DNA of 64,000 bases, taken from contig NZ_AP027737.1 of NCBI RefSeq assembly GCF_030296695.1, positions 2,108,001-2,172,000 of the forward strand, in the 5' to 3' direction. This document shows, in pieces, positions 1,826-25,878 of this stretch. The notes below the pieces were generated by a model, which was given only the letters and a program-made list of their open reading frames with translations, was not told the origin of the DNA and ran no database searches. The translations under genes were made by a program, and so were the position numbers. Source of the stretch: Agromyces mangrovi. GTDB taxonomy: Bacteria > Actinomycetota > Actinomycetes > Actinomycetales > Microbacteriaceae. The first letter of the stretch is position 1. Every line of letters starts with the position of its first letter.

Positions 1826-1833
1826 TTGCGCAA
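1826..1833. promoter_or_regulatory. TTGCGCAA operator (predicted LacI-type site)
   Basis: Perfect 8-bp palindrome in the divergent region between the reductase/racemase pair (start 1782) and the secreted hydrolase (start 1959). It is one of eight copies, several of them beside carbohydrate genes. It could control either or both divergent units. Confidence 0.6.
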
Positions 1834-1958
1834 TAGTCGGGCGCTCGATTGTCGCACATGAGCCAGCCATCTAGCCTCGGTCGCTGACCGCCGCCGCGCG
1901 AGCGGGGCGGAGCGCACACGCTAGCCGTGCGCAGCCCACCGATGAAGTTGGAGGAACC

Positions 1959-3812
1959 GTGACCCGAACATCCCCTGTGCGCCGCGCCCCTGTCGCGCTC
2001 GGCGCCGCAATCGCCCTCGCCGCGGCGATCCTGCCGGCGATCCCCGCAGCGGCCGAGCCCGTTGCCTGCGTGGATCCCGGGTTCGGATCGCCGATGCATG
2101 TGACCGCGGACTGCGTCGACCCGACCTACGCGAATCCCGTGATCGACGCGATGACCGACGAGACCTCACCCGTGCCGCACCACCGGGTGGCGGGTCACTT
2201 CGAAGGTACCGACATCCAGTTCACGATCTACCTTCACGCCGAAGCGGACAAGGTGAAGTGGGAGGGCCGGTTCTTCCAGTACACGTACCCGACCGTGTTC
2301 ACGCCAGGCGTGAACTTGGCGGAGGCGACCGATCGCGCGATCGGATTCGCGCTGGCGAGCGGCGGGTACGCCGTGCAGGCGGGGAACACGTCGCTGTCGC
2401 TCGGCTACCGCCACGCGGCCGCTGCGGCCAAGTTCGCCGAGACCGTCGCCGCCGACTACTACAGCAGTGACGAACCGATCTACGGCTACCTCTACGGACC
2501 CAGCGGCGGGTCCTTCCAGACGGTGGGCGCCGCGGAGAACACCGATGGAGTGTGGCAGGGCTTCGTGCCGATGGTGCAGGCGGTGCCGACGCCCAACAGC
2601 TACAACTTCAACGGACGCGCTGCCGCAGAACTCATCCTGGCGGACAAGGCCGACCTCATTCGCGACGCGCTCATGCCGGGCGGCAGTGGCGATCCTCATG
2701 CGGTCCTGGACGAAGCCGAGAGCGCGCTGTACGAGGAGGTGGCCAAGCTCGGCATCCCGGTCAAGGCATGGGAGAACCCCGAGTACCTCTTCGGCTACGA
2801 CGAGCAGTTCTACGGCACCGGGGGCCTCAGCAGCGACGACCCGCTGTCGTACGACCCGACCTACGTCGACGACTTCTGGAACTCGCCTGGATATCTCGGC
2901 ACGGAGGACTCCCCGCTCGGAGAGCGCGTTCGTGCCGCACTTCTCGAGATGGGCGACAGCGTCGGACATCGCTGGAACATCGCCAAACGGTTCGCCTATC
3001 GCTACCAGCTGCCGGCCGACGGCACGGGGTGGATCGCCCTCGACCAGTTCCGCAATCCGGATGGCTCTCCGATCCATCCGCAGCGCGCCGTGGGCGAGCC
3101 CGGCTTCTCGGGGTTCGTGTCCGGGTTCGCCGCGTTCGACGGCTCGGTGAACGGAAAAGTGATCGCCGTGTCGAACCTGTACGACACCGACGCCCTGCCG
3201 ATTCACACCGACTGGTACCGCCAGCGGATCGAGGAGAGTCTGGGCGCCGCAACGTCCGACAACTACCGCCTCTACTTCACCGACCACGCAGACCACCAGG
3301 ATGCGGTTCCCAGCGGAGAACGAGCGACGTACGCGGTCGACTGGTACGGCATCGTGGAACAGGCGCTGCGGGACATCGCGACATGGGCCGAAGGCGGCGC
3401 CGCGGCGCCGGCATCCACCCGGTACACGATCGAAGACGCGCAGATCGTCATCTCCGACAAGGCGCACGAGCGTGACGGCCTGCAGCCCAGCGTCGACATC
3501 ACCACCGGCGGCGGCCAGATCATCACTGCAAAGGTGGGCCAAGCGGTTCCGATCGTGGCGACTGCTCGCGCCCCTCGAGGCGGTGGGCTGATCATCACCG
3601 CGGAGTGGGACTTCGACGGGGACGGCACCTACGATGCCCGGGGAGTCGCCTCCGCGAAGAAGAACGCGACAGTTTCGACGAAGCACGTGTTCAGCGAGCC
3701 CGGCACGTATTTCGTGAGCGTGAAGGTCGCAGCCGAACGCAACGGCGATGTCGACGCCGAGTACGCGCTCCTGCAGAACATCGACCGCGTCCGCGTGGTC
3801 GTGACCGAGTAG
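1959..3812 (+). CDS. Secreted tannase/feruloyl-esterase-like alpha/beta hydrolase with PKD-like C-terminal domain
   Basis: Protein of 617 aa from GTG 1959, preceded by GGAGG at a good distance. Residues 1-33 form a Sec signal peptide (basic n-region, Ala-rich core, predicted cleavage near AAA/EP). The central part carries YGPSGGS with a candidate nucleophile Ser182, resembling the G-x-S-x-G-G elbow of tannase/feruloyl esterase-type hydrolases, and a late FTDHADHQDAV segment that may give the catalytic His. From about residue 490 to the end a PKD-like beta-sandwich is suggested by EWDFDGDGTYD and HVFSEPGTYFVSVKV. An extracellular esterase acting on plant phenolic esters fits the neighbourhood, but the substrate is not determined. 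It is transcribed away from the reductase/racemase pair, across a TTGCGCAA site. Confidence 0.6.
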   Translation: MTRTSPVRRAPVALGAAIALAAAILPAIPAAAEPVACVDPGFGSPMHVTADCVDPTYANPVIDAMTDETSPVPHHRVAGHFEGTDIQFTIYLHAEADKVKWEGRFFQYTYPTVFTPGVNLAEATDRAIGFALASGGYAVQAGNTSLSLGYRHAAAAAKFAETVAADYYSSDEPIYGYLYGPSGGSFQTVGAAENTDGVWQGFVPMVQAVPTPNSYNFNGRAAAELILADKADLIRDALMPGGSGDPHAVLDEAESALYEEVAKLGIPVKAWENPEYLFGYDEQFYGTGGLSSDDPLSYDPTYVDDFWNSPGYLGTEDSPLGERVRAALLEMGDSVGHRWNIAKRFAYRYQLPADGTGWIALDQFRNPDGSPIHPQRAVGEPGFSGFVSGFAAFDGSVNGKVIAVSNLYDTDALPIHTDWYRQRIEESLGAATSDNYRLYFTDHADHQDAVPSGERATYAVDWYGIVEQALRDIATWAEGGAAAPASTRYTIEDAQIVISDKAHERDGLQPSVDITTGGGQIITAKVGQAVPIVATARAPRGGGLIITAEWDFDGDGTYDARGVASAKKNATVSTKHVFSEPGTYFVSVKVAAERNGDVDAEYALLQNIDRVRVVVTE

Positions 3813-3822
3813 GCGCCGGCTT

Positions 3823-3866
3823 CGGAGCGGAGGGGTGCTTGCCGGCCGGGGCATCCCTCCGCTCCG
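3823..3866 (+). terminator. Strong stem-loop after the secreted hydrolase
   Basis: A perfect 12-bp inverted repeat (3823-3834 with 3855-3866, CGGAGCGGAGGG and its complement) starts 11 bases after the stop codon, with a 20-base loop that can pair further. There is no T-run, which is common in high-GC actinobacterial terminators. Confidence 0.6.
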
Positions 3867-3960
3867 CGGTGCCTGCCGATGTCCCGGGGCCGGTTCGGGA
3901 ACATCGACGGCGCGGCGGTGTGCGCGGCTCGCACGTACTCTGACGGCCGCGCATGACGCA

Positions 3961-25086: not shown

Positions 25087-25205
25087 GCGAGGGTCCGTTC
25101 GGGTCGTGCGGCTCGTGTGGTGAGGGCGGTTCGTGTGGTGAGGCTGGTGAGATCGGATGCGACCCGGCGGCGTCGGCGGGAGCGGAAGGTGCGAGCGAGG
25201 CGGCG

Positions 25206-25808
25206 TCAGGGACGCAGCGCGTCGCGGGCGGCGGCGAGCCGGCGCCGGTAGAGGGTGCGGAAGTCGGCCTCCGACTCCTCGAAGAAGTACTCGGTGATGG
25301 TCGGGCGCATGAGCGCCTCCAGGACGTGGACGAGGGCTGCGGCTCGCAGGTCGCCCGGTGCGACCCCGGTGCGACGCTCGGTGAGCTCGATGTCCTCGCG
25401 CTGGCCCTGGAGGGTCCAGTCGATGACGTGCGTGACGAGTTGCGGCTCGCGCTCGAACGCCCGCGCGATCTCGTGCGCCTCCGAGCGGTCGGTGTCCATG
25501 CGCTCCCAACGCGCGACCATGAGCTCGGCGAGGTCGTCGACCAGGTCGCCCGTCGGACCGCCCGCCAGGAACGCCTCGACGAGATCCGAGTCGTCCGTGC
25601 GCACCGGCACGCCGACGACGGCGTGCTCCTTCGAGGCGAAGTAGTTGAAGAAGGTGCGCCGCGAGACGCCCGCCTCCGAGCACACCTCCTCGATGGTGAA
25701 CCCGTGGAGCCCGCGCGCCGCGGTCAGCCGGCGGGCCTCGGCGCGCAGCGCGCGCGAGGTCTCGGCCATGCGACGCTGCTGCGGGGTCGCGATTGCACTC
25801 TGGGACAC
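25206..25808 (-). CDS. TetR-family transcriptional regulator
   Basis: 200 aa from GTG 25808; ATG 25769 is the alternative. No ribosome site is visible for either. GTG 25808 lies 7 bases after a -10 hexamer and so fits a leaderless transcript. The N-terminal helix-turn-helix is clear ([36 protein letters not shown]), and the rest is the all-helical ligand-binding domain. It is expected to repress itself and the downstream DHA2 pump by binding the two palindromes over its own promoter (25793-25844). Confidence 0.9.
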
Positions 25809-25844
25809 AGAGTGCAGTGTTGCACTTTCAAGCCGAGAGTGCAA
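25793..25844 (-). promoter_or_regulatory. TetR promoter covered by two TGCACTC-type palindromes
   Basis: Reading the minus strand: -35 TTGCAC (25844-25839), 17-base spacer, -10 AACACT (25821-25816), then 7 bases to GTG 25808. Operator 1 spans 25793-25817 (half-sites TGCACTCTG and CAGAGTGCA, 5-base centre) and covers the start codon. Operator 2 spans 25820-25844 (TTGCACTTTC and GAGAGTGCAA, 5-base centre) and covers the -35 to -10 interval. Centres are 27 bp apart. This is a textbook self-repression arrangement. Confidence 0.65.
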
Positions 25845-25870
25845 ACGGCGCCACGGTGTCGCGCGGGGAG

Positions 25871-25878
25871 TTGCGCAA
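25871..25878. promoter_or_regulatory. TTGCGCAA operator upstream of thuA
   Basis: Perfect palindrome extended to GTTGCGCAAC (25870-25879), about 90 bases upstream of the ThuA start and beside the TetR promoter. It is the only such site I found to the right of 23 kb and links this two-gene unit to the LacI-type regulon. Confidence 0.55.

Follow-up and report, generated by a model that had tools for sequence, protein, structure and literature searches.

Eight copies of an octamer palindrome very probably mark a local LacI-type sugar regulon in Agromyces mangrovi

The window, the whole 64-kb stretch of DNA that was analysed, contains a 27-kb block of plant-sugar genes whose promoters, together with the block's own LacI-type regulator, are very probably marked by eight copies of the octamer TTGCGCAA. 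The copies lie near gene starts and are conserved together with the LacI lineage and many of the island genes. Since eight octamers stand at island promoters and the pair of regulator and octamer recurs in related bacteria, sequence comparison points, with very high probability, to a real but ordinary sugar-controlled gene switch. It is highly likely that TTGCGCAA is the core operator of the LacI protein encoded at 9142-10152, which would repress the units starting at these sites and be released by an intracellular sugar. The features of the island are listed in Table 1.

Table 1. Predicted operators and genes of the island in window coordinates; distances run from the site centre to start codons picked by RBS and homology, not by annotation
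Feature	Coordinates	Strand	Evidence or position
Ornithine cyclodeaminase/mu-crystallin (OCD) family reductase	829..1782	-	PF02423; NCBIfam matches below cut-offs
Operator TTGCGCAA, predicted	1826..1833	.	48 bp to OCD-family start, 130 bp to esterase start
Predicted secreted esterase with C-terminal PKD-like domain	1959..3812	+	AlphaFold2, Foldseek, VIA; PKD below Pfam cut-off
GPH-type sugar:cation symporter	4009..5520	-	PF13347; TIGR00792 below cut-off
Operator, predicted	5626..5633	.	110 bp to GPH symporter, 160 bp to nucleoside hydrolase (-GH3)
Nucleoside hydrolase-like protein	5789..6835	+	PF01156
GH3 glycoside hydrolase	6850..9138	+	PF00933, PF01915, PF14310
LacI-family regulator, predicted TTGCGCAA binder	9142..10152	-	PF00356, PF13377 above cut-off
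Operator, predicted	10169..10176	.	20 bp upstream of lacI start, 152 bp to GH78
Operator, predicted	10242..10249	.	94 bp upstream of lacI, 80 bp upstream of GH78
GH78 alpha-L-rhamnosidase	10325..13113	+	PF17389 and others; best solved relative 6gsz
Apiosidase-like (GH140-like) hydrolase	13135..14922	+	PF13204, PF16586, PF18310; relative 4n0r 'putative glycoside hydrolase'
Operator, predicted, first of pair	14943..14950	.	152 bp upstream of SBP5 importer operon
Operator, predicted, second of pair	14965..14972	.	130 bp upstream of SBP5
Oligopeptide-type ABC importer: SBP5, permease, permease-ATPase fusion, ATPase	15099..20181	+	
GH43, frame broken between two overlapping ORFs	20174..21678	+	PF04616 split over two frames
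Operator, predicted	21698..21705	.	~124 bp upstream of MFS (ATG at 21824)
MFS transporter, frame broken	21824..23381	+	PF07690 split over two frames
TetR gene and efflux pump, also within island	23398-25769		
Operator, predicted	25871..25878	.	94 bp upstream of ThuA-Gfo/Idh, ~105 bp upstream of TetR (ATG at 25769)
ThuA-like protein and Gfo/Idh/MocA oxidoreductase, overlapping ORFs	25969..27752	+	PF06283, PF01408, PF22725

An exact scan of the whole window recovers all eight copies reported by the initial annotation, at the positions in Table 1, and none outside them. The computed expectation is 0.15 copies per 64 kb against 8 observed, in keeping with the earlier estimate of fewer than one, and none of 100 dinucleotide-preserving shuffles of the window gave 8. 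Between positions 801 and 27800, TTGCGCAA is the most over-represented of all 256 even 8-bp palindromes (8 vs 0.07 expected), and the runner-up reaches 2 vs 0.23. A genome-wide scan, which had been proposed as a check, does not contradict the idea of a regulon: the genome (3.61 Mb, one contig) contains 15 copies, 8 of them within this 24 kb (binomial ~2e-14), against 71 copies of the mirrored control AACGCGTT. The 7 copies outside the island are divided between coding sequence (5) and other promoters (2). Genomes of the genus carry 1-45 octamers apiece (60 genomes) and nearly all lack this LacI, the island type being present in 3 of the 60 at the set threshold, which makes a count of 15 unremarkable in itself; it is the clustering that is unusual. 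Expected counts, shuffles, palindrome ranking and genome clustering rule out a chance origin of the copies.

Every copy had been described as lying next to a gene start, and all 8 are indeed within 20-160 bp of at least one start codon. An alternative OCD start would put site 1826 at 101 bp. A crude GC3 gene caller places 3 of the 8 sites (10169, 10242 and 25871) inside long ORFs. We read these as artefacts of start choice, since ORF 9199-13113 overruns lacI on the opposite strand and ORF 25768-26679 opens 200 bp before the ThuA start. Across relatives, the crude caller has 8 of 46 sites in clade A (the window's own clade) and 6 of 12 outside it lying within ORFs; the 46 clade-A rows represent 45 distinct sites, since L017 474 and L153 3382 coincide. 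One-mismatch copies of TTGCGCAA occur at 10 places in the window, all in coding sequence as judged by eye against the ORF list.

The product of 1959-3812, previously called a secreted esterase, shows a predicted alpha/beta-hydrolase fold (AlphaFold2 pLDDT 87.7), and its Foldseek and VIA matches place it closest to MHETase, feruloyl esterase and tannase, which backs that name at the level of a model. It shares with these hydrolases the predicted fold and a GxSxG nucleophile, and G, S, G and G of its GPSGG elbow are invariant. Sequence matches to the tannase, feruloyl esterase or MHETase families are absent at 0.001 in Pfam and NCBIfam, and absent among PDB sequences. The apiosidase-like hydrolase, which we take to be GH140-like, is probably encoded in the same operon as GH78. 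GH43 of relatives aligns to both window parts in a single frame, and the MFS counterpart in L150 is a single 417-aa ORF. GH78 is present, and domains of L-rhamnose isomerase, kinase or aldolase are absent from the 28 island ORFs scanned against Pfam.

Related loci were compared by tblastn with cut-offs of 80, 90 and 100 bits in three comparisons, following another suggestion of the initial annotation; in these loci, where the genes are arranged differently, the octamer precedes homologues of many island genes. A TTGCGCAA site likewise stands upstream of the esterase homologue in L012 (15892) and in L150 (9396), the symporter homologue is preceded by one in L015 (16382) and L153 (13310), and the MFS homologue in L150 has one 120 bp upstream. 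Among the best 5 or 3 candidates per genome, 7 of 398 family genomes yield an SBP5 orthologue, and every one of these belongs to the 25 in which this LacI was found. The hypergeometric value (1.6e-9, or 2.6e-8 without the own genome) overstates independence because the genomes are related. The octamer lies upstream of SBP5 in 6 of these 7 loci; in the exception, G278, SBP5 is far from LacI, and one of the only 2 genomic octamers is at LacI-ThuA. In clade B, an octamer separates ThuA from LacI in 7 of 8 genomes. The regulon of this related clade looks minimal, with one octamer, between LacI and ThuA-Gfo/Idh. In the window, ThuA-Gfo/Idh is 15 kb from LacI and keeps its own octamer (25871).

The earlier proposal of a regulon across the whole left island is supported, many of its genes having sites in relatives; nucleoside hydrolase-GH3 and OCD are not confirmed as targets by this comparison. 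It is quite possible, if somewhat doubtful, that the octamers are real LacI operators and that the OCD gene, nucleoside hydrolase-GH3 and TetR-pump are bystanders, which is compatible with the best explanation. Sites 1826, 5626 and 25871 lie between divergent genes, where a single octamer does not reveal which of the two neighbours is under control. OCD and TetR have no tblastn match above the bit cut-offs beside octamer sites in relatives, and the nucleoside hydrolase and GH3 matches there show 30-36% identity and mostly do not adjoin a site. For the efflux pump, related loci give one 30% match (L175) and none above cut-offs in the other two comparisons. On the other hand, sites 1826 and 5626 are within 48-160 bp of both flanking starts.

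Octamer footprinting in relatives supports LacI (9142-10152) as the natural regulator, as was first suggested. Among 33 distinct LacI homologues (40-100% identity), 20 carry the exact octamer at most 400 bp upstream; of 73 distant LacI genes used as control, none does. The 33 rows exclude L125, L128 and L129, which have the same contig and position as L016, L017 and L018, and the count also omits an inverted second copy of LacI in G003. By clade, the octamer precedes LacI in 10/12 members of A, 8/8 of B, 0/7 of C and 2/6 others. The clade-A exceptions, L017 and L148, both belong to the Leifsonia Leaf336 genome, which has no site at lacI and has sites at other sugar genes. In clade C the recognition helix is changed and reads SVSLVSRVLAGK or close to it. 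Its 7 members are near-copies and in effect one lineage, so the missing sites count as one event and footprinting cannot work there; a palindrome scan of L135, L137, L140 and L141 for a substitute operator gave nothing common to all four. A one-mismatch copy is found in 3 of the 13 homologues without an exact upstream copy, which means little because 16 of the 73 distant controls also have one. In the LacI tree, rooted at midpoint with long-branched outgroups, clade C and L131 are nearer to the window's clade than clade B is. The 37 aligned sites, selected by the octamer TTGC-GCAA, form an even palindrome with central CG; beyond the 8-bp core, invariant by the search itself, there is only a weak A/T preference 5-7 from the centre.

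We consider it very unlikely that the octamer is bound by another regulator, the island TetR or a LacI paralogue, with lacI merely one more target. The TetR gene is in the island, ~105 bp from site 25871, but its promoter has a different inverted repeat of its own, TGCACTCT/AGAGTGCA (seen by eye), and the lack of TetR matches above cut-offs in loci that keep the octamer, where the pump has a single 30% match, makes TetR unlikely as the shared regulator. The genome has 28 LacI-HTH matches, each a possible binder; a close upstream octamer is found only at the island LacI. One further octamer (L001) has a GH13-like gene on one side and a second LacI gene on the other, but it is ~1 kb past the start of that LacI gene, at the downstream end, and the helix differs. 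In G116, an octamer lies ~90 bp upstream of a different LacI-type gene (31% identity, helix RATASRVLAG), beside a binding-protein-like gene, suggesting that the octamer core may not be exclusive. Against these cases, the octamer follows the island LacI lineage and is missing where the helix changed. It is hardly credible that the octamers are structural repeats (terminators, mobile-element remnants or a DNA-modification motif) clustered by accident: 14943 and 14965 form a perfect 14-bp inverted repeat that also folds as a strong RNA hairpin (z -5.7), 15 bp past the GH140-like stop codon, but the other six sites form no such pair and sit upstream of starts, the copies share 8 bp alone with unrelated flanks, and few copies occur elsewhere in the genome.

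If LacI is the regulator, as we prefer, a LacI dimer would occupy each TTGCGCAA with the central CpG on the two-fold axis. From the arrangement of sites and genes we infer binding, repression and induction, and repression as the mode of action is assumed from the family. The repressed set would include lacI itself, the GH78/GH140-like operon, the SBP5 importer-GH43 operon and the GPH symporter, and also the predicted secreted esterase, the MFS transporter and ThuA-Gfo/Idh; nucleoside hydrolase-GH3 and the OCD-family reductase would belong to it less surely. LacI would be released when its periplasmic-binding-protein-like domain binds an intracellular sugar or a derivative of one, and the set would be induced together. 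The source of this sugar, speculatively, is pectin fragments or plant glycosides that are acylated and contain rhamnose.

In its original role this LacI probably controlled just the divergent LacI/ThuA-Gfo/Idh pair, an arrangement that a related clade still shows, and more operons were gained in the window's clade. A stronger version, which we regard as unlikely, is that the LacI of an old ThuA-Gfo/Idh oxidative module, with its 8-bp operator kept down to ~45% identity, recruited an acylated plant-glycoside programme and responds to an oxidised (keto) sugar. If this were true, the recruited set would be esterase, rhamnosidase, apiosidase-like hydrolase, GH43, import and export, acquired via new operators and gene shuffling, and the inducer would be made by the ThuA-Gfo/Idh module rather than being a plain monosaccharide. 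The analysis yields a candidate regulator together with its gene set and the exact core of its predicted operator, all open to testing. It would tie a widespread predicted esterase family, here without match to a curated catalytic family, to plant-glycoside use in Microbacteriaceae. A compact natural series for local regulon growth and a shift of LacI specificity is offered by clades that have a single site, many sites, or a changed helix and no site.

Papers naming this LacI lineage or motif were not found among the literature matches listed, judged mostly by title and abstract opening. The closest comparison is with local LacI sugar regulons. In one survey (PMC4052901), 1173 of 1303 LacI regulator motifs are even palindromes with central CG, and motif length is 16-22 nt. 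The island shares with these regulons the even palindrome with central CG, a site at the regulator's own gene, sites close to starts, and carbohydrate targets clustered with the regulator. It differs in its recognisable core of 8 bp and in having eight exact copies in one island. In Bacillus subtilis, the LacI-family repressor IolQ controls a sugar-alcohol dehydrogenase gene; its high-affinity footprint happens to contain TTGCGCAA, but the palindrome proposed is AGAAAGCGCTTTCT (PMC5504672). The LacI-type regulators of rhamnose and its oligosaccharides RhaR, RhmR and RhiR (PMC3870299) are predicted to control alpha-L-rhamnosidases and ABC importers, as in the island, but they are described as having 20-bp palindromes, and RhaR of Actinomycetales goes with rhamnose catabolic genes, which are not among the island ORFs scanned. 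The island regulator itself shows the LacI-family pattern, a LacI HTH and a periplasmic-binding-protein-like effector domain, and the island appears to be a local LacI regulon of a known kind with a history of expansion.

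The palindrome TTGCGCAA, the predicted 8-bp operator core, occurs eight times in the window against 0.15 copies expected, and none of 100 shuffles reaches eight. The initial annotation had listed eight copies and fewer than one per 64 kb by chance; both figures hold, with exact agreement in the coordinates. It tops the 256 even 8-bp palindromes of window 801-27800 in over-representation (8 copies vs 0.07 expected); the runner-up has 2 copies vs 0.23 expected. A scan of the whole window found no octamer outside the plant-sugar island. The suggested genome scan shows the clustering as well: 8 of the 15 genomic copies fall inside the island's 24 kb, and none occurs between genome position 2007289 and the island. 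Five of the seven outside copies lie within coding sequence by eye, and the crude gene caller concurs (5/7). Their hosts appear to be a LuxR-like gene, a lipoprotein signal region, an ABC ATPase, an EtfB-like gene and DnaE. Another copy sits between a further LacI gene and a GH13-like gene, and one precedes a MarR-like gene that bears its own TTGCGAAA/TTTCGCAA repeat.

Every island copy is intergenic and beside a start, as annotated; for all eight, one or more start codons lie 20-160 bp away. Sites so near start codons would suit repressor action. By eye, the octamer heads every definable transcription unit in 829-27752. The copy at the head of the TetR-pump unit may serve only the opposite side, because a separate TGCACTCT/AGAGTGCA repeat is present in the TetR-pump promoter. 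The only match to this pump in related loci is 30% identical (L175), and the unit is perhaps a later insertion. The reading frames of the split GH43 and MFS genes are open in relatives; the two genes are either pseudogenes or the product of an assembly error. The genome is a single contig of 95.35% completeness. The PKD-tailed protein has 540 homologues (120 listed). No curated family matched its catalytic part, for which an alpha/beta hydrolase fold is predicted, nearest to MHETase, feruloyl esterase and tannase.

Window coordinates of the octamer sites and of island genes discussed in the text
Feature	Position	Context
Octamer	1826	between OCD-family (ornithine cyclodeaminase/mu-crystallin) reductase and predicted secreted esterase
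Octamer	5626	between GPH (sugar:cation) symporter and nucleoside hydrolase-GH3
Octamers	10169, 10242	between LacI and GH78-GH140-like
Octamers	14943, 14965	ahead of SBP5 (oligopeptide-type ABC binding protein) importer-GH43
Octamer	21698	ahead of MFS
Octamer	25871	between TetR-pump and ThuA-Gfo/Idh
LacI gene	9142-10152 (-)	
PKD-tailed protein	1959-3812	predicted secreted
GH43 gene	20174-21678	split across two reading frames
MFS gene	21772-23381	split across two reading frames
TetR gene and DHA2-type MFS pump	23398-25769	within sugar island; own inverted repeat

The proposal that the island LacI is the regulator gains support from its homologues. The closest in the named collection are L012-L018 (61-74% identity), and two more come from the same genus (45-50%), where LacI was found at E 1e-60 in 3 of 60 genomes, its own included. 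All nine fetched neighbourhoods contain the octamer, and in all except L017 it is no more than 200 bp upstream of lacI. The remaining 73 of 80 kept loci reach 34% identity at most. Over their 1.37 Mb, 13 of these loci contain an octamer anywhere, in no case inside the 400 bp ahead of the LacI match. The family-wide search, which scored the best few candidates per genome and leaves absences not firm, found homologues (E below 1e-65) in 25 of 398 genomes. The exact octamer lies within 400 bp upstream in 20 of the 33 distinct homologues, compared with 0/73 distant loci. Within the genome, comparison of positions for 28 LacI-HTH matches (27 over the cut-off) places an octamer close upstream only of the island LacI. 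One-mismatch copies were dropped as support, since their frequency in the 13 homologues without the octamer (3/13) is no higher than the background at distant loci (16/73).

On the maximum-likelihood tree, octamer presence clusters, with 5 changes against a shuffled mean of 12.6. The exact octamer is found in 10/12 rows of clade A, which holds the window, in 8/8 of clade B, in 0/7 of clade C (near-copies with the recognition helix SVSLVSRVLAGK or close) and in 2/6 rows elsewhere. Clade C and the unsited row L131 are closer to clade A than clade B is; most simply, then, the operator is old and clade C would have lost it along with its helix, a loss tallied as one event. Genome G116 counts against the octamer being exclusive to this lineage. 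There, the octamer lies about 90 bp upstream of another gene of the LacI type (31% identity, helix RATASRVLAG), which diverges from a binding-protein-like gene (L159 444-1461).

The orthologous upstream regions, also proposed for comparison, carry the octamer before homologues of many island genes. In clade A these are the SBP5 operon, GH78, GH43, GH140-like, GPH symporter, esterase and MFS genes, in differing order. Clade A octamers also precede genes without window homologues: GH2 enzymes, additional GH78s, a second Gfo/Idh, a beta-lactamase-type esterase and, in five genomes (L013, L014, L018, L174, L177), another MFS type. These assignments exclude L018 1364/19036/20793, L017 17178, L153 6111 and several sites in L174, L176, L177 and L179. 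In L017 (474-1302), an octamer is 102 bp away from the gene for a CoA-transferase subunit, which diverges from a GH78 and may hint that a non-sugar component is broken down. Of the targets originally listed, SBP5, GH78, GPH, esterase and MFS are backed by clade A relatives; the related loci compared give no backing for the nucleoside hydrolase-GH3 unit or the OCD gene. The crude caller places 38/46 clade A octamer rows and 6/12 other rows between genes; the ORFs called around the rest often overshoot the LacI or ThuA start.

SBP5 orthologues were found in 7 of the 398 genomes, again from the best few candidates per genome. All seven belong to the 25 that have LacI, and six have the octamer upstream. 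In the seventh, G278, SBP5 is located elsewhere with AGAACGTTCT repeats in place of the octamer (L173 1200-1520), which suggests capture by another regulator; its 3.9 Mb contain two octamers, one at the LacI-ThuA pair. The octamer pair ahead of SBP5 in the window forms a perfect 14-bp inverted repeat with centres 22 bp apart. It would suit two dimers side by side and may double as the terminator of the upstream operon. In L018 (17907-18186), an octamer separates the SBP5 operon from a second LacI-type gene that faces it and has a different recognition helix.

In 7/8 clade B genomes, LacI and ThuA flank the octamer on opposite sides, directly in five and with a 1.3-kb gap in two. A 62-65% identical Gfo/Idh is present in six of these seven; the eighth genome, G003, has only a 43% one. 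Clade B shows one octamer per fetched 20-40 kb except for two in G003, where two inverted LacI copies each have their own octamer and matching flanks (L094 17050-19335). Clade A has 1-7 per fetched 20 kb, and eight occur in 66 kb of G246. In the window, ThuA-Gfo/Idh retains its octamer (25871) 15 kb from LacI, which links that site with the regulon on grounds other than proximity. The simplest reading, with the root uncertain, is that the regulon expanded from a divergent LacI/ThuA pair. Possibly the single site of clade B reflects loss rather than the ancestral state; in L158 and L166, ThuA is near LacI without an exact octamer.

We consider it very probable that the island is a new local LacI regulon, with confidence slightly reduced because of the G116 gene and the one-mismatch background rate. 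A LacI dimer would bind TTGC-GCAA with the central CpG in the middle. The regulon is solid and useful, and its kind is unsurprising. In PMC4052901, 1173 of 1303 LacI regulators recognize an even palindrome with central CG, 72% show autoregulation and over 75% of sites lie 30-140 bp upstream. The central-CG even palindrome is also the architecture of the island site, and the predicted binding fits the family as described there.
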